Shown: positions 20,502 to 28,823 of the stretch, in pieces
How positions within the stretch are numbered: position 1 is the first letter of the stretch
Layout: each line of letters starts with the position of its first letter
NCBI RefSeq assembly: GCF_938028735.1
Contig: NZ_CALIMF010000007.1
Span: 1-64,000, forward strand
Length of the DNA: 64,000 nucleotides
Origin: an uncultured Thermanaerothrix sp.
Lineage (GTDB): Bacteria > Chloroflexota > Anaerolineae > Anaerolineales > Anaerolineaceae
Reading direction: 5' to 3'
Notes under the pieces: model-generated
The model's input: the letters and a program-made list of their open reading frames with translations, nothing else
The model's database searches: none
What the model was told of the DNA's origin: nothing
Program-made: the position numbers and the translations under genes

Positions 20502-22889
20502 TTAAGCGGATGATCCCGGTGGGGGCAGTTCCCGCAGGAGTTTCTGTAAAGCCATTTCATAATCGGCTTTGTTGGGAGGATTAAGGGCAATGATTTCGCG
20601 AACTATGCGGATGGCCTGATGAGGTTCACCCAATTCAATATAAGCATCTGCAAGGGTGTCCAGTTCTGCTACGGCATGCTCAGTCTGTTGAATCTGTCGG
20701 TACAGATGAGCCAGGCGATAGCGTAGAAGCAATTTCTTTTGTGGATACTCCAGAATCAGATCATGCAGGAATTGCACAGCCTCATCTACACGGTTGGCGC
20801 TGATTAGGAAGTGGATGTAATTATCTATTTCGTTAAGAGCGGCTGCTTCCTGACCCAGACGGAAGTGAAGTTCAATGATGCGTTTACGCAAATCACGGTC
20901 GTCCGGCTGTAATGCTCGCATTTGCTCGTACGTGCTAACGGCTTGTCGCCAGTCGAGGCGCTGTTGGTCAATGTCCGCTATCTTTCCCAAAATGAGCAAT
21001 GCCCAGCGCCGATACTCGCGTGAGGATTGGGCAATGCGAAGGGCTTCTAAGTACGTCTGGCGGGCCTGGTCTAACTCAGCCAGGTGGTAATGTGTATCGG
21101 CCAACGCTATGTTCTCTTGAACCGCCTCATCAGTGCGCCCCTGGTTGAGCAATAATTCGATCAGTTGGTGCCGAATGGAGAGTTCCATGGGGGCCATTTG
21201 AACACTGCGCTGTAGCAGGTTTACGGCCTGACCGGTGTCACCGCGCAGGTGATACAGAGAAGCCACCAGGCGGTATTTGGTGACGGCTTCCTGGGTCATT
21301 CCCTTTTGCATCATCAGGTCGCCGATCTGAACGTGCAAGGGCAGGTAAGTCGGTGCAAAACTTAGCGCACGGAAAGCTTCTTCCATGGCCGAGTAGAGCA
21401 TATGTTGAGCAGCCAATTGCCGAACCTGCTCGAGGGCTTCGATCACCTGCGCACTGCGGGTTTGCAGCAACATCTCTGCCAGTGGCAGAAGAGGGGCATT
21501 CTCGCCCTTTTGTTGCTGTAATTGCTGACGCGCCTTTCTTAGGAAATCCTGCCAATTAGGTTGAGCAATTTGGCGCTCTATGCTCTCGCAAAGGCTCTGC
21601 AACTTTTGCGCATCTTTTTCATTGCGTTGAGCCTCGATGATGGACTCATAAGCCTGATTTAACTCCCCAACCCGTGGGGGTGGAACGGTTTGCCCATCCG
21701 CCAGGCGCAGAGCCTGCAGATAGGCTATCGCCGCCTCACTGAGATTGCCCAGGCGGGCGGCGATTCGCCCGATCAGAAGGAAAGCGGCCAGGGCAAAATC
21801 GGGGTGAGCCGCCGCGCGGTAAAGATACTGCAGGGCACGGGCCGGCTCCCGTTCGGATAGTAATAGCCCCAAGTTGAAGGAGAGGGCGGGGTGAACGAGT
21901 CCTAGTTTTTCCGCATGTTCCAGTTCCTGCAGTGCCTGAGCATCATCGCCATGGGTTTGTGATTCGATGGCTTGGTTAAGGTGGAGGAGCAAGCGCGTTC
22001 GATCAGCCTGACTCGTAGGCAAGAGCGTTCCCGTTCCGCGGGCCAGGGCGCTCAGTCCCCGGCGGGAAGAGGGAGAAGAGGGACTAACAGCATGTTCGGC
22101 CTGATCGAAAAGCAGGGTGGCCAGTTGAATCAACGCCTGCTGGCGTGCCTCAATAATGGGATCCAGGGCCTGGCGATCTTGATCGCCGGTCTCGGTTTTT
22201 AAAATCTCAGCCAGGCGCACCGGGCCGGTACCGCCACGTGGTCGGGTGGGTTTGGGCAGAGGTGTACCATTGCGCAAGGCTTGCAGAGCCTGTGTGGCTT
22301 CGGCACTTCCAGGAAGGAGTTCTAAAGCGTGCTGGACAGTCTGAATGGCCTTGGAAACCTGGTTATTCTGCTGTAACAGGCTAGCTACAGCTAGATAGGC
22401 TTCCACAGCCTCACTTCTGCGCCCCAAACGTTCATAGATGAGCGCCAGGCGGCTGTGAGCGGTTAGGTTTTCAGGTTGCAAGCTCAGAACGCGAGTAAGG
22501 CTGGCAATTGTCTTCTCAACATCGCGGTTCTTCAGGTACAGATCGGCGGCTTGTAAACCGAACCTGACGGCGTCTTTTAGCCGCCCCAGGCGTTCGTAGA
22601 TACGGGCCATTTTCTCATGCGCCAGGGGATCCTCAGGTTGTAGAGTCGCCAGACGCTGATAGATGGAAAGAGCCTCGGTGAACCGCTGCAACTCAAACAA
22701 CGCCAACCCAAGGTTGCTAAGCGCTTGGGAATCTTCTGGAAACTCATCCAAAGCACGCCGATAATGTTGAGCGGCGAGTTCCCAGTTCTGGTCCCAGGCC
22801 GCCGAATGCCCTTCGTTCATGGCTTGCTGAAAAAGTTCGCGATTGCCGGTCACGTTCCCCTCGTTCTGTAAATCAGATAGTATCGTCAA
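20502..22889 (-). CDS. Large tetratricopeptide-repeat protein
   Basis: Repeated TPR units, e.g. AWDQNWELAAQHYRRALDEFPEDSQALSNLGLALFELQRFTEALSIYQRLATLQPEDPLAHEKMARIYERLGRLKDAVRFG. Confidence 0.9.
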   Translation of the reverse strand: MTILSDLQNEGNVTGNRELFQQAMNEGHSAAWDQNWELAAQHYRRALDEFPEDSQALSNLGLALFELQRFTEALSIYQRLATLQPEDPLAHEKMARIYERLGRLKDAVRFGLQAADLYLKNRDVEKTIASLTRVLSLQPENLTAHSRLALIYERLGRRSEAVEAYLAVASLLQQNNQVSKAIQTVQHALELLPGSAEATQALQALRNGTPLPKPTRPRGGTGPVRLAEILKTETGDQDRQALDPIIEARQQALIQLATLLFDQAEHAVSPSSPSSRRGLSALARGTGTLLPTSQADRTRLLLHLNQAIESQTHGDDAQALQELEHAEKLGLVHPALSFNLGLLLSEREPARALQYLYRAAAHPDFALAAFLLIGRIAARLGNLSEAAIAYLQALRLADGQTVPPPRVGELNQAYESIIEAQRNEKDAQKLQSLCESIERQIAQPNWQDFLRKARQQLQQQKGENAPLLPLAEMLLQTRSAQVIEALEQVRQLAAQHMLYSAMEEAFRALSFAPTYLPLHVQIGDLMMQKGMTQEAVTKYRLVASLYHLRGDTGQAVNLLQRSVQMAPMELSIRHQLIELLLNQGRTDEAVQENIALADTHYHLAELDQARQTYLEALRIAQSSREYRRWALLILGKIADIDQQRLDWRQAVSTYEQMRALQPDDRDLRKRIIELHFRLGQEAAALNEIDNYIHFLISANRVDEAVQFLHDLILEYPQKKLLLRYRLAHLYRQIQQTEHAVAELDTLADAYIELGEPHQAIRIVREIIALNPPNKADYEMALQKLLRELPPPGSSA

Positions 22890-25653
22890 AAGGGTTCATC
22901 TCACCCCAATTCAACCCCCAGCGGGCCTCGGTGAGGAGAGGTACAACCAGTTGATAGGCATTTTCCATCACGTTCTTCACTACGCGCGCCGTGTTCTCCT
23001 TCTCTTCCTCGGGACACTCCAATACCAGTTCATCGTGCACCTGTAGTAGTAAGCGGGCGGAAAGCCCGGCTGTCTCTAGGGCTGTTGGTAGTCGCACCAT
23101 GGCAATTTTCATGATATCCGCTGCTGTACCTTGGATAGGGGCATTGATGGCTTCACGTTCTTCACGTTGACGAACAGCGGGGCTGGGGGGATTCTTGAGG
23201 TTGGGGAAGTAACGTCGGCGTCCCAATAAGGTCTCCACATATCCCTGACGGGTCGCCATGGCACGGGTATTCTCAATATAGTCCTTGACGCGAGGGAACT
23301 GGTGGAAGTAAGCCCGTACAAAATTCTCTGCTTCGGCTAAGGTCAGGTCGGTGGTACGGGTAAGCCCATATGGGCTCATGCCGTAGATCAGGCCGAAGTT
23401 GATGGCTTTAGCGTGTCGGCGTTGTTCTTTGGTAACTTGGTCAAGGGGGACCCCGTAAATTGCCGCAGCCGTAGCGGCGTGAATGTCCTGTCCCGCCAGG
23501 AAAGCATTGATCATAGCCTCGTCACCTGAGATATGGGCTACGATGCGCAGTTCGATTTGAGAATAATCTACCGAAATAAGCACCATTCCAGGTGTAGCGA
23601 TAAAGGCGCGCCGTACTAAACGTCCCGTTTCGGTGCGTGCAGGGATATTCTGCAGGTTAGGGTCTGAAGAAGCGAGGCGCCCGGTAACCGAGCCGGTTTG
23701 GTTGAACGAGGTATGCACTCGCCCGGTCTTAGGATTGACCTGCTTAGGTAATGCCTCTACATAAGTGGATTTGAGTTTAGAGAGTTCCCGGTACTCCAAG
23801 ATCATCTCAATCACGGGGTGCGCAGAACGCATTTCTTCAAGGACCTCGGCTGAAGTGGAGTAGTGTCCACTGCTGGTGCGCTTGCGCCGATCTGGTGGTT
23901 CTAGTCGGAGGGTTTCGAAGAGGGCTTTGGATAGTTGCTGAGTTGAGTTGAGATTAAAGGGATACCCTATCACCTCAAAAATCTGGGCTTCAATTTCGGC
24001 CAGCCGCTGGGTTAATTCGCGCGACATTTGGCGCAGGAAAGGTATGTCCAGTGCAATACCGGCCTGCTCCATACGAGCCAGGACTGGCACCAGCGGCATT
24101 TCTACCTCGTTGAACAAGCGTAGGGCGTTAACTTCTCTTAAGCGCTCTTCAAGAAGGGGTTTCAGACGCAGACAAATCTCTGCATCAGCGGCTGCGTACG
24201 CGGCCACCGTTTCAATCGGTACTTCAGCCATGGAACGCTGTTTTTTGCCTTTACCAATAAGTTCCTCAATGTGGGTCATTTGGACGCCCAAGTAGGTTTC
24301 AGCCAGTCCCTTGAGGTTGAGGTTGTAGCCTTCAGGATTAAGCAGCCAGGCGGCAATCATGGTATCGAAACTGAGGGGAGAAACCCAAACTCCGTGTTCT
24401 GCCAGGGCCAGCAAATCGTACTTAAGGTTATGACCAACCTTGCGTCGTTGGGGATGGTTCAGGTAAGGCTGTAGGCGTTCGCGCACCAGCGCCCAGGGCA
24501 GTTGTGCCTCGCCGGTGGTATGTCCAATGGGGATGTAATACCCTTCACCCGGTTCAATGGCCAACGAGATCCCCACCAGTTCGGCTCGAAGAGGATCCAG
24601 ACTGGTTGTTTCGGTATCTAGCGCAAACTCGTCCGCACGATCCAGACGCTCACAAAGCTCGTCTAACGCTGGGGAAGTGCTCACAATGTGGTAACGGGTT
24701 TCGGGTGGGTTGGGAATGCCCACACGGGCGAGTGGCAACCCGAAAAGAGGAAGTTGGGTCGTTGCTGGGGGTGATTTCTGTTGCAGGGCTTTGAGGCGCG
24801 GGATCAAACTACGGAATTCTAGTTCCTGGAAAAAGCGTTCTATTGCAGCAAAGTCGAGGTTAGAAGTGCGTGCCTGTTCCAAGTCAAGGGTGATCGGGAC
24901 ATCGGTACGAATGCGTGCTAGATCACGGCTAAGGTAAGCCGAATCACGCCCTTTTTCTAGCAATGTGCGCAAGCGAGGAGGGAGTTCATCCAAATGCGCG
25001 TAGATCTCATCCAGAGTGGGGTACTGAGTCAGCAAAGAAACGGCAGTTTTTTCACCAATTCCTGGCACGCCGGGGATGTTGTCTGACGTATCACCCACTA
25101 GCGCCTTGTAGTCCACAATTTGCCAGGGATAGATGCCCAGTAGGGCTACCACGTCTTGAGGGCCGTAGTCTTTGGCTTCAGAGAGTTTGTTGCCGGCCAG
25201 ATTCACGATCACACGCTCGTTGACCAATTGTAGCAAATCGCGATCCCCGGTGAGGATTTTGACTCCCAGTCCATTTTCAACGGCCTGGTGAGCGATGCTG
25301 CCCAGAACATCATCGGCTTCGTAGCCCTCTTTTTCCAAAATTGGCAAACCAAAGGCTTCGACCATCTCGTGTAGACGATCAATTTGAGGGCGCAAATCGT
25401 CGGGCATTTTGGCCCGGGTAGCTTTGTAATCTGCAAACAAGTCATTACGGAAAGTTCGCCCGGTATCAAATGCAACCGCTAAGAATTCGGGCTGCTCTTG
25501 ATCCAGCAGACGCAATAACACACTGGTAAAACCATAGATTCCTGTAGTGATCTCACCTTTGGTGGTCATCAGGTGCTGACCGCTTTTGAGGATAGCGAAG
25601 TAGGTGCGGTAAGCCAGGGCATGACCATCAATCAAATATAACGTTGGGGGCAT
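22873..25653 (-). CDS. polA: DNA polymerase I
   Basis: 5'-nuclease LYLIDGHALAYRTYFAI; 3'-5' exo FALDTETTSLDP; polymerase VSVDYSQIELRIVAHISGD, RRHAKAINFGLIYGMSPYGL, LLLQVHDELVLECP. Confidence 0.97.
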   Translation of the reverse strand: MPPTLYLIDGHALAYRTYFAILKSGQHLMTTKGEITTGIYGFTSVLLRLLDQEQPEFLAVAFDTGRTFRNDLFADYKATRAKMPDDLRPQIDRLHEMVEAFGLPILEKEGYEADDVLGSIAHQAVENGLGVKILTGDRDLLQLVNERVIVNLAGNKLSEAKDYGPQDVVALLGIYPWQIVDYKALVGDTSDNIPGVPGIGEKTAVSLLTQYPTLDEIYAHLDELPPRLRTLLEKGRDSAYLSRDLARIRTDVPITLDLEQARTSNLDFAAIERFFQELEFRSLIPRLKALQQKSPPATTQLPLFGLPLARVGIPNPPETRYHIVSTSPALDELCERLDRADEFALDTETTSLDPLRAELVGISLAIEPGEGYYIPIGHTTGEAQLPWALVRERLQPYLNHPQRRKVGHNLKYDLLALAEHGVWVSPLSFDTMIAAWLLNPEGYNLNLKGLAETYLGVQMTHIEELIGKGKKQRSMAEVPIETVAAYAAADAEICLRLKPLLEERLREVNALRLFNEVEMPLVPVLARMEQAGIALDIPFLRQMSRELTQRLAEIEAQIFEVIGYPFNLNSTQQLSKALFETLRLEPPDRRKRTSSGHYSTSAEVLEEMRSAHPVIEMILEYRELSKLKSTYVEALPKQVNPKTGRVHTSFNQTGSVTGRLASSDPNLQNIPARTETGRLVRRAFIATPGMVLISVDYSQIELRIVAHISGDEAMINAFLAGQDIHAATAAAIYGVPLDQVTKEQRRHAKAINFGLIYGMSPYGLTRTTDLTLAEAENFVRAYFHQFPRVKDYIENTRAMATRQGYVETLLGRRRYFPNLKNPPSPAVRQREEREAINAPIQGTAADIMKIAMVRLPTALETAGLSARLLLQVHDELVLECPEEEKENTARVVKNVMENAYQLVVPLLTEARWGLNWGEMNPFDDTI

Positions 25654-25665
25654 GGGAGATTGACC

Positions 25666-27444
25666 TCAGGAAGCGGGGCGATTTTGAGCTATCAGGGCTT
25701 CAATTTCTGCATTGCTTGGAGGAGTCTCGTTGGCAATCGCCAGATGCGCTGGTGCCCAAAAGGAGTCGGGTGCCAGATCAGCCAGCGCCTCAGGCACCCG
25801 ATGAAAGAGCCGCCAGGCGCTATGATGCCGCACAATGTGAACCATGTGGCGCGGGGTGATGGAGGAAGGGATAGCCATCGTCCATAGGAGGTAATTCGAG
25901 GTGACTACCAAACGCTTGAGCGTCCATCCCTGGCGCTGGCACCAATGCGGCATCCAGCGTGTCAATTCCATGGTTGCCTTGGGGTTCTGCAGGGCTTCTG
26001 GGAGCGTAGTGACCAGTACAGCCGTGTAGGTTAGGTAGAGAGGGGCCTCTATAGCAGGCCGATTGAGGGCAGCCGGGGATAGCGGTTGGGTGTCCTCTAC
26101 GCTGAGGGGTGGTGTAGGGGCTTCAAGATCTACGGACGGTTCGGCAGGAAACCCCCCGGTAGCCGCGGCCAAAGCCTCAAAAAAGTCGGGCGGCGGCTCA
26201 AAGGCGCCCTCGTGGACTTCTCCAAGGGGTTGAATATCCATTTCACCAGGTTCGAGTGTCCAGATGGCAGACCGGGTAGTTTCTTCCTCGGCTTGGCCGG
26301 CTTCGGTGACTAAGCGATCCTCATGGGCTGGGGGCTCTAATGAGGGCTCTTCAGGGGCAAACGTTATTTCAGGCAGCCAGTCTGCTTGTAAGCCTAGCGT
26401 TTCCTCGCGGGCAGATCGCTCTGGAGTGGGGGGTGGGGCCTCAGCCAACCATTGCTCCAACAGGCTCAGATCCGGCAGGGATATCTCCTCTTCTTCTCTC
26501 TCCTCGGGTGTAGCCCAGCCTTCTGACTCCATCATCCAGCTCAGGGATTCATCCTCAGGGGTTGAGCGTTCGCCCTCAGTGATGATCTCATCAGCGGGGC
26601 TGGTGAGAGGAGGAGCGGATGCCTCGGCAAGCAAGAGTTCTGAGGTTAGCCAAGGAGAGGCCTCAAGGGCTTCCGCTAACGACCGTCCTTGTTGCCGTGC
26701 CTGACTCAAAGGTATGGAGGTGGCAAAGAATAGCAATAATAGTGTCTGTGGGGTAAGCGGGCGAGCGTAGAGCAGGAGCGGTTCTCCCTGACCCAATGGT
26801 GTCACATACCGCAGCCATTCACCGTCTTTCAAGAGGCGTTGCCAGCGCTGCTCCATCCAGGATTCCAGGTGCTTTCGAAGAGATGTTCCAAGGGTACCCG
26901 TGTGGACAAGCAAGCGCCCAGCGCTATAAATCCAAGCGGCCTGCGCACTGCTCTGTCCCATGAAAGCATCCAGGTGCTGGCGGAGCGCTTCCAATGCTTG
27001 GGGCATTTGAGGCGGGGGCGGGAGGATTTTCTCACCTCGACAGAGAGTCTCCACGGCGAGTAGTAAATCGGGCAGGTAGAAGGGTTTGGAAAGGTAAGCC
27101 CAGGCAACAATAGTGGAGGCTTCTGGGTGGTATGGGTCATTCTCCGGCGGGAAGAGCAGGATGGGTAGGTGGGGAAACTGGCGCGATATGGTTTCCAGGC
27201 CTTCACGCAGGAGGGTATCGCCCGCAGGGAGGTCTGCAATGAGCAGATCAACGGGTTCCTGGGCAATGCGGTCAAAGATCTCCGCTGGAGAAGCACACAG
27301 GGTGACCCGGTAATGACCGGTTTCCTCCAGGCCTAGACGTAGCCATTCGGCGAATTGGGTTTGAGGGCTGAAAACCAGAAGGCTCTTTACATCATTTAGC
27401 ACATTTTTAAGTCTATCACGCCTGATAAGGCTGAGCAAGCGCAA
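25666..27444 (-). CDS. Receiver-like protein with long acidic/Pro-rich linker and C-terminal IS200/Y1-transposase-like domain lacking catalytic residues
   Basis: N-term VKSLLVFSPQTQFAEWLRLGLEETGHYRVTLCASPAEIFDRIAQEPVDLLIADLP...SKPFYLPDLLLAVETL (receiver-like); C-term YLTYTAVLVTTLPEAL...GWTLKRLVVTSNYLLWTMAIPSSITPRHMVHIVRHHSAWRLFHRVPEALADLAPDSFWAPAHLAIANETPPSNAEIEALIAQNR. Confidence 0.65.
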   Translation of the reverse strand: MRLLSLIRRDRLKNVLNDVKSLLVFSPQTQFAEWLRLGLEETGHYRVTLCASPAEIFDRIAQEPVDLLIADLPAGDTLLREGLETISRQFPHLPILLFPPENDPYHPEASTIVAWAYLSKPFYLPDLLLAVETLCRGEKILPPPPQMPQALEALRQHLDAFMGQSSAQAAWIYSAGRLLVHTGTLGTSLRKHLESWMEQRWQRLLKDGEWLRYVTPLGQGEPLLLYARPLTPQTLLLLFFATSIPLSQARQQGRSLAEALEASPWLTSELLLAEASAPPLTSPADEIITEGERSTPEDESLSWMMESEGWATPEEREEEEISLPDLSLLEQWLAEAPPPTPERSAREETLGLQADWLPEITFAPEEPSLEPPAHEDRLVTEAGQAEEETTRSAIWTLEPGEMDIQPLGEVHEGAFEPPPDFFEALAAATGGFPAEPSVDLEAPTPPLSVEDTQPLSPAALNRPAIEAPLYLTYTAVLVTTLPEALQNPKATMELTRWMPHWCQRQGWTLKRLVVTSNYLLWTMAIPSSITPRHMVHIVRHHSAWRLFHRVPEALADLAPDSFWAPAHLAIANETPPSNAEIEALIAQNRPAS

Positions 27445-27539
27445 TGGTGGCGAAGTTCGCTTGGAGTCTTGGCAACCCCTGGCGGATATGGGATAATTCA
27501 GGGCTGGCTCGGTATTCTCCGAATGTGAGGGAAAACGGC

Positions 27540-28823
27540 GTGAGGTTCAAAAAAGTTTGCGTTTTGGGTTTAGGCTATATTGGCCTGCCTACCGCCAGCA
27601 CGCTAGCCACCCATGGTCTGCAGGTCGTGGGGGTAGATGTCAATCCACAGATTGTGCATGGTTTACAAAACGGCAGGCTTCACCTTTATGAACCTGGATT
27701 GCGCACGTTGGTTCAGGCGGCTTTGCGTTCGGGCAATCTGGTGGTACGTAGCGAGCCAGAAACCGCAGATGCATTTATCATTGCTGTGCAGACCCCCTTT
27801 CTAGAGGATAAACGGGCAGATTTACGATATGTGCGGGCTGCCAGTGAAGCCATTGTCCCTCATTTAAGGACGGGAAACCTGGTTATCCTTGAGTCCACTT
27901 CCCCACCCCTGACGACCCTCCAGGTGGTTGCCCCCATTCTTGAGCGTTCAGGTTTACGAGCCGGGCAGGATTTCCACTTGGTTTATTCGCCGGAACGTGT
28001 CTTGCCGGGGCAGATTCTGCGCGAATTAATTGAGAATGCGCGTGTGGTTGGGGGGATTGATCGCGCCTCAGCCGAAGCAGCTCGTGACCTGTACGCCACT
28101 TTCGTACGAGGCGAGATTGTACTGACCGACTGCACCACTGCTGAGATGGTCAAGTTAATGGAGAATACCTTCCGCGATGTCAACATTGCACTAGCAAATG
28201 AATTTGCCCGGTTGGCAGATCGTCTGGGTATTGACGTGTGGGAGGCTATTGCACTGGCCAATCGCCATCCTCGGGTCAACATCTTGCGCCCAGGTCCTGG
28301 GGTGGGTGGACATTGCATTAGTGTGGATCCTTGGTTTCTGGTCGAGGCAGCCCCAGACCTGACCCGCTTGATCCGTTCCGCCCGTGAAGTCAATGACTCA
28401 CAGCCTGATTTTGTGGTGGAATGGGTGGAGCGCAATCTGGGACGCTTGGAGGGGCGGCGCCTGGCCGTTTTGGGCCTGGCCTATAAGCCCGATGTGGATG
28501 ATTTGCGCGAAAGTCCGGCCATTGAAGTAGTTCATCGGCTGGTCCATGCTGGGGCGCATGTGCGTGCCTACGAGCCCTTCAAACCCGAGGCTCAAATATC
28601 GGGTGTGCCAACTGTACCCACACTGCCAGAGGCGTTGGAGAAGGCCGAGGCATTGGTGTTGCTGGTAGGCCATACCAGCCTGCGCGAGATTAACCCCTAC
28701 GAGATTCAGACACTGACTCCGGCCCGCCTGGCTTTCGATGCCGTAAACGGTTGGGATAAGACAGCTTGGCAAGCGGCTGGTTTTCGAGTTCTGCGATTGG
28801 GGGATGGGCGCGAGGATGCCTGA
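27540..28823 (+). CDS. wecC: UDP-N-acetyl-D-mannosamine dehydrogenase-type nucleotide-sugar dehydrogenase
   Basis: VCVLGLGYIGLPTASTLATHGLQVVGVDVNP, VILESTSPP, YSPERVLPGQILRELIENARVVGG, AEMVKLMENTFRDVNIALANEFA, PGPGVGGHCISVDPWFLV; likely GTG start 27540 rather than 27444. Confidence 0.9.
   Translation: MRFKKVCVLGLGYIGLPTASTLATHGLQVVGVDVNPQIVHGLQNGRLHLYEPGLRTLVQAALRSGNLVVRSEPETADAFIIAVQTPFLEDKRADLRYVRAASEAIVPHLRTGNLVILESTSPPLTTLQVVAPILERSGLRAGQDFHLVYSPERVLPGQILRELIENARVVGGIDRASAEAARDLYATFVRGEIVLTDCTTAEMVKLMENTFRDVNIALANEFARLADRLGIDVWEAIALANRHPRVNILRPGPGVGGHCISVDPWFLVEAAPDLTRLIRSAREVNDSQPDFVVEWVERNLGRLEGRRLAVLGLAYKPDVDDLRESPAIEVVHRLVHAGAHVRAYEPFKPEAQISGVPTVPTLPEALEKAEALVLLVGHTSLREINPYEIQTLTPARLAFDAVNGWDKTAWQAAGFRVLRLGDGREDA

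Follow-up and report, generated by a model that had tools for sequence, protein, structure and literature searches.

An open reading frame directly ahead of polA in an uncultured Thermanaerothrix sp. (GTDB lineage Bacteria; Chloroflexota; Anaerolineae; Anaerolineales; Anaerolineaceae) ends in a segment that resembles a transposase, which raises two questions: what protein does it encode, and what would a transposase-like domain do beside the gene for DNA polymerase I (Pol I)? The DNA analysed, hereafter the window, is a stretch of 64,000 nt (assembly GCF_938028735.1, contig NZ_CALIMF010000007.1, positions 1-64,000 of the forward strand).

The reading frame was found where the initial annotation had placed it, at 25666..27444 (-): its stop is at 25666 and it codes for 592 aa counted from TTG 27444, the numbering used here. 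The true start is probably GTG 27402 (578 aa) and not TTG 27444, because the aligned N-termini of orthologues begin about 4 aa ahead of the first beta strand. The frame is a real, conserved gene whose product carries, from N to C, a pseudo-receiver, a Roadblock/LC7 domain, an acidic linker and a dead Y1 transposase domain; we hold this identification of the protein to be close to certain.

The Y1 domain occupies residues 463-592 (25669..26058, (-) strand). Searched against Pfam, the window sequence matched Y1_Tnp (PF01797) over residues 472-570 with an E value of 0.0066 for the full-length protein and of 3.1e-4 for the C-terminal part alone; the single-sequence score, like that of the receiver match described below, lies slightly under the Pfam gathering cut-off. 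Among the 41 family members, 39 matched Y1_Tnp individually (best E 2.7e-15). A profile built from the C-terminal part of 39 members and run against all PDB sequences gave eight distinct matches, all of them IS200/IS605 transposases: 2ec2 (3.7e-19), 2fyx (5.3e-18), 2f4f (5.4e-18), ISDra2 (about 1e-16) and IS608 (1.7e-9).

An AlphaFold2 model of the window C-terminus, computed with 27 relatives (pLDDT 85, pTM 0.75), showed the order strand-helix-strand-strand-helix-strand-helix, which is that of the Y1 enzymes. When this model was compared with the PDB by Foldseek, ranks 1 to 30 were all Y1 proteins (ISDra2, Sulfolobus IS200, IS200, IS608 TnpA and a REP-associated tyrosine transposase, RAYT) and no non-Y1 match was obtained at E < 5e-3, which rules out an unrelated fold. 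The C-terminal 130 or so residues are homologous to IS200/IS605 Y1 transposases: the Y1 (HUH) plan proposed from the letters alone was borne out by both profile and structure comparison, and the failure of similarity that would have spoken against it did not arise.

The protein was compared with its orthologue from the sister species, with which it shares 78% identity overall. The Y1 domain was the best conserved part (93% identity) and gave the lowest dN/dS of the protein, 0.054, against 0.068 for the receiver, 0.124 for the Roadblock domain and 0.11 for the linker; these ratios are rough, as dS in this comparison is close to 1 or exceeds it. These results bear on the simplest objection, namely that the resemblance is due to chance or that the gene merely reads through a decaying insertion. 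The Pfam score under the gathering cut-off would favour such an explanation, but chance or a misread frame is ruled out by the 39 individual Y1_Tnp matches, the profile E value of 3.7e-19 and the structure match, and a decaying transposon remnant by synteny and by purifying selection that is strongest in this very domain; we consider the objection to have practically no chance of being correct.

The window domain has lost the residues on which Y1 catalysis depends, as the initial annotation had stated. In the alignment, the former HUH motif reads SNYLLW (25882..25899, (-) strand), with His-x-His replaced by Tyr-x-Leu, and the helix that formerly carried the catalytic tyrosine reads EALIAQ (25684..25701, (-) strand), with Leu at the Tyr position. 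The Trp that Y1 enzymes conserve remains, within SFWAP (25750..25764, (-) strand).

The same pattern was seen across the family. The His pair occurs in none of 131 unique fused domains: Tyr occupies the first position in 115 and Gln the second in 103, and a His persists, as a vestige of the ancestral pair, in five members at the first position and in five at the second. The position of the catalytic Tyr holds Y in 90, F in 37 and L in 4 of the fused domains, and the Trp is retained in 130. The complete HH-Y-W set was found in 17 of the 19 unfused full-length proteins bearing the His pair. On these sequences, the mechanism by which Y1 enzymes are known to cut is excluded, because the His pair is absent from every member. 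The Tyr present in 90 domains could be taken to indicate an active nuclease of an unorthodox kind, using Tyr with other metal ligands; such an enzyme is very unlikely, since both His are found together in no member and Tyr has been replaced by Phe or Leu in 41 of the 131 domains, with Leu in the window.

The N-terminal part, residues 15-140 (27025..27402, (-) strand), was assigned from a Response_reg match and the alignment. Response_reg (PF00072) matched residues 31-131 of the window protein with E 2.2e-5, below the gathering score, and 29 of 41 family members, the best at 1.6e-13. The window receiver retains a phospho-acceptor-type Asp (in LLIADL) and the Lys of SKPF, and the acidic pair after strand 1 is replaced by S-P; the alignment showed that most members likewise keep the Asp and the KPF Lys and have lost the acidic pair. 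The domain is probably a pseudo-receiver because that pair is gone.

The region that follows, about residues 145-263 (26656..27012, (-) strand), matched Roadblock proteins weakly by sequence: the best PDB profile match was MglB, at E 0.026, and Pfam Robl_LC7 was matched by 2 of 26 members, at best with 0.06. A model of the orthologue L134, built with the window sequence in the alignment (pLDDT 81), gave MglB, p14/MP1 and Ragulator subunits as top Foldseek matches, with E about 1e-6, and the region fits the a-b-b-a-b-b-b-a fold related to MglB. On this model, residues ~145-263 are a Roadblock/LC7 domain.

An acidic, proline-rich linker, recognised by its composition, joins this domain to Y1 (residues 264-462; 26059..26655, (-) strand). 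Its residues 266-462 include 47 D/E, 7 K/R and 27 P, in agreement with the acidic, Pro-rich linker of some 200 residues reported earlier, and it is the least conserved part of the protein (67% identity with the sister species). The general description of a receiver-type protein connected by a linker to a catalytically dead Y1 domain was thus correct; the MglB-like Roadblock/LC7 domain, the loss of the receiver's acidic pocket and the conserved polA neighbourhood come in addition to it.

The polA gene (22873..25653, (-) strand; Pfam DNA_pol_A, 5_3_exonuc and DNA_pol_A_exo1) starts 12 bp downstream of the fusion gene in the same orientation, with no sign of a terminator-like site in the 12-bp gap. 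Across Anaerolineae, at least 106 of 123 unique loci have a co-directional polA no more than 1.5 kb downstream, and several of the other 17 are contig ends. The third gene of the conserved cluster (20502..22889, (-) strand) codes for a TPR-repeat protein of 795 aa, assigned by Pfam TPR families, and overlaps the end of polA; a TPR protein of about 770 aa follows polA in most relatives (gene cluster 2, 84 genes). A TPR protein also trails polA in some genomes that have no fusion gene, and polA and the TPR gene may be an older pair.

The upstream edge of the locus is a divergent gene for a UDP-glucose/GDP-mannose dehydrogenase (27444..28823, (+) strand). In three loci of the window's own family (L250, L251 and L252) the fusion gene is absent and polA is directly divergent from this dehydrogenase gene. 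The fusion gene is dispensable in some lineages and not required for Pol I, because these loci lack it and are otherwise identical.

A match to the fusion protein was found in 46 of 61 related genomes, some of these matches covering the receiver only. A scan of about 85,000 GTDB species genomes, with a 12-row subset of the alignment as query, gave 178 relatives, of which the best 80 were almost all labelled Chloroflexota/Anaerolineae. Outside Anaerolineae, a phylum-wide profile found stand-alone IS200-type genes of about 140 aa with far lower scores, and those that were read kept the His pair almost without exception; a distribution of the fusion throughout Chloroflexota was rejected on account of these low-scoring short matches.

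In a maximum-likelihood tree, 17 stand-alone IS200-type rows formed one clade with 100/100 support and every fused domain fell outside it. The four rows labelled as single on the fused side of the tree come from dead domains whose contigs are truncated, or from one short stand-alone gene. These sequences are most simply read as one capture of TnpA and a subsequent loss of catalysis; the tree is consistent with this, short of proof. The window's genome contains only one PF01797 match, and this, together with synteny and purifying selection, upholds the earlier proposal that the domain is domesticated.

Other Anaerolineae families share the architecture of the fusion protein, with a Y1 domain that has diverged further; five of these loci adjoin polA (L236, L237, L245, L265 and L266). 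In one such family (L236:1567-4551, L265:4767-7781 and L266:4775-7621) a linker of about 550-620 aa separates receiver and Roadblock and the Roadblock domain adjoins Y1, which differs from the Roadblock-linker-Y1 order of the window. Receiver-Roadblock genes that lack Y1 were also found (L261:6180-6947, L240:4179-5216, L242:4771-5541, L243:4140-4922 and L070:5796-7109), at least two of them, in L261 and L070, directly upstream of polA; they represent either the ancestral form or a loss of Y1.

Several genomes of the same order carry short stand-alone genes (about 144-231 aa) for this Y1-derived domain, one genome having as many as four additional copies: L068:6618-7199(-), G308:C16, G322:C105, G428:C202 and G443:C141 and C32. 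Only the L068 gene was read over its whole length, and it is catalytically dead.

Net charge was compared between the two groups of Y1 domains. The median net charge was +6 (pI 9.55) in HUH-intact Y1 proteins and +1 (pI 8.1) in fused domains, with a 5th percentile of about -8 in the latter, and a KYRRK-like basic patch after strand 1 was lost in the fused domains. Other basic positions persist, and new ones (GWR, VRPE and QTRxRQG) are conserved in most members, mostly not in the window lineage; around the former active site, conserved Arg/Lys have been retained or acquired in most members. Few of the basic positions conserved elsewhere in the family survive in the window lineage. This loss and the fall in charge weaken the case for nucleic-acid binding.

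The initial annotation had described a DNA-hairpin-binding module, and the reduced charge and pI and the lost KYRRK-like positions did not support this. In an extended form of that idea, the Y1 domain still binds hairpin DNA as TnpA and RAYT do, marks or regulates specific palindromes and possibly represses its own operon. The fold is retained, IS608, ISDra2 and RAYT structures with bound hairpin DNA are among the Foldseek matches, and some basic positions remain, but the main basic patch is gone. RAYT contacts REP around strands 1 and 4 and with the C-terminus (PMC8266576), and the matching regions are much changed in the fused domains. Hairpin binding of this type appears improbable.

What the protein does instead is suggested by its position: the retention of a dead-Y1 gene directly ahead of polA points to an old transposase fold in a housekeeping job. 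We propose a dimeric, non-catalytic binding or scaffold factor made with Pol I, and give this mechanism as a whole a probability of roughly 0.45. A single ancient capture in Anaerolineae would have joined an IS200/IS605-type TnpA domain to the C-terminus of a receiver-Roadblock protein upstream of polA, after which the captured domain would have lost its cutting chemistry and retained its fold. The Roadblock fold is usually dimeric and of platform type. The fusion protein would be a homodimer, because Y1 and Roadblock folds are both normally dimeric; in IS608 TnpA, active sites are assembled in trans within the dimer (PMC5934647). Pol I, the TPR protein and the fusion protein would be produced together; the Y1 domain would hold its ligand, either single-stranded nucleic acid in a structured form or a protein, and leave it uncleaved, and the receiver-Roadblock half would provide a docking platform of the signalling type for repair or lagging-strand processing that depends on Pol I. 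As a caveat to this mechanism, the polA gene order may be frozen ancestry; the reduced charge of the domain, the loci that lack the gene and the polA-adjacent receiver-Roadblock genes devoid of Y1 also count against it.

According to the main rival explanation, the Y1 fold now serves only for dimerisation or protein interaction and does not bind nucleic acid, and the link to polA would mean co-expression only. The fall in charge and the loss of the KYRRK-like patch agree with this, as does the retention of the fold and its Trp core while the catalytic positions drift, in a protein whose other half has a typical dimer and platform fold. It is harder to reconcile with the several basic positions kept or newly conserved in most members, and the strict adjacency to polA suggests a DNA-related role. 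We regard this explanation as a serious possibility that probably falls short. In a narrower form of the scaffold proposal, the protein would be a dead-HUH accessory factor of Pol I which detects DNA structures, or holds on to them, where replication or repair takes place; such a factor would be a replication or repair regulator of a kind not described before, an outcome we count as rather unlikely.

Compared with IS200/IS605 TnpA (IS608, ISDra2 and IS200; PF01797), the fused domains share the fold, the order of strands and helices, the conserved Trp and sequence homology. They differ in the absence of HUH, in the frequent replacement of Tyr by F or L, in being joined to receiver and Roadblock domains and in their lower positive charge; moreover, TnpA is encoded by a stand-alone, multicopy gene of ~140 aa, whereas the fusion gene is syntenic and the single PF01797 match in its genome. 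Like RAYT (TnpA-REP), the fusion family has a Y1 domain in a vertically inherited, housekeeping-like gene, but RAYTs retain the HuH-Y core and process REP (PMC8266576, PMC6006769) and the fusion family is without catalysis.

The middle domain resembles MglB-type Roadblock/LC7 proteins in fold and, weakly, in sequence, and differs in being embedded in a multidomain protein; there is also no clear MglA-type GTPase (PF00025) in its own, 88%-complete genome, where matches were weak and all lay inside longer open frames. The N-terminus matches response-regulator receivers in sequence and mostly keeps their Asp and Lys, but in most members it lacks the acidic pair after strand 1, and no output HTH domain follows.

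A text search of the open-access literature found no prior description of the receiver-Roadblock-dead-Y1 architecture; a large survey of TnpA-Y1 proteins had set aside fusion proteins of unexpectedly great length ahead of its analysis (PMC6006769). The family would be a clade-wide domestication of Y1 distinct from that of RAYTs, in which catalysis was lost and signalling-type domains were joined: the described domesticated Y1 transposases that were found (RAYTs) are active nucleases, and the fusion family never has the His pair. In this signalling-type protein of the polA cluster the dead Y1 domain is conserved better than any other part, which shows the fold exapted for a non-cutting role, and the family points to a putative Pol I accessory factor in a major class of bacteria that has been little studied.

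At the upstream edge of the locus, a sigma-70-like promoter match at 27469-27497 (TTGGCA-17-GATAAT, the second hexamer preceded by TG) points towards the UDP-glucose dehydrogenase gene. The first in-frame ATG of this gene, at 27444, lies upstream of the promoter match, and its true start is probably further along.
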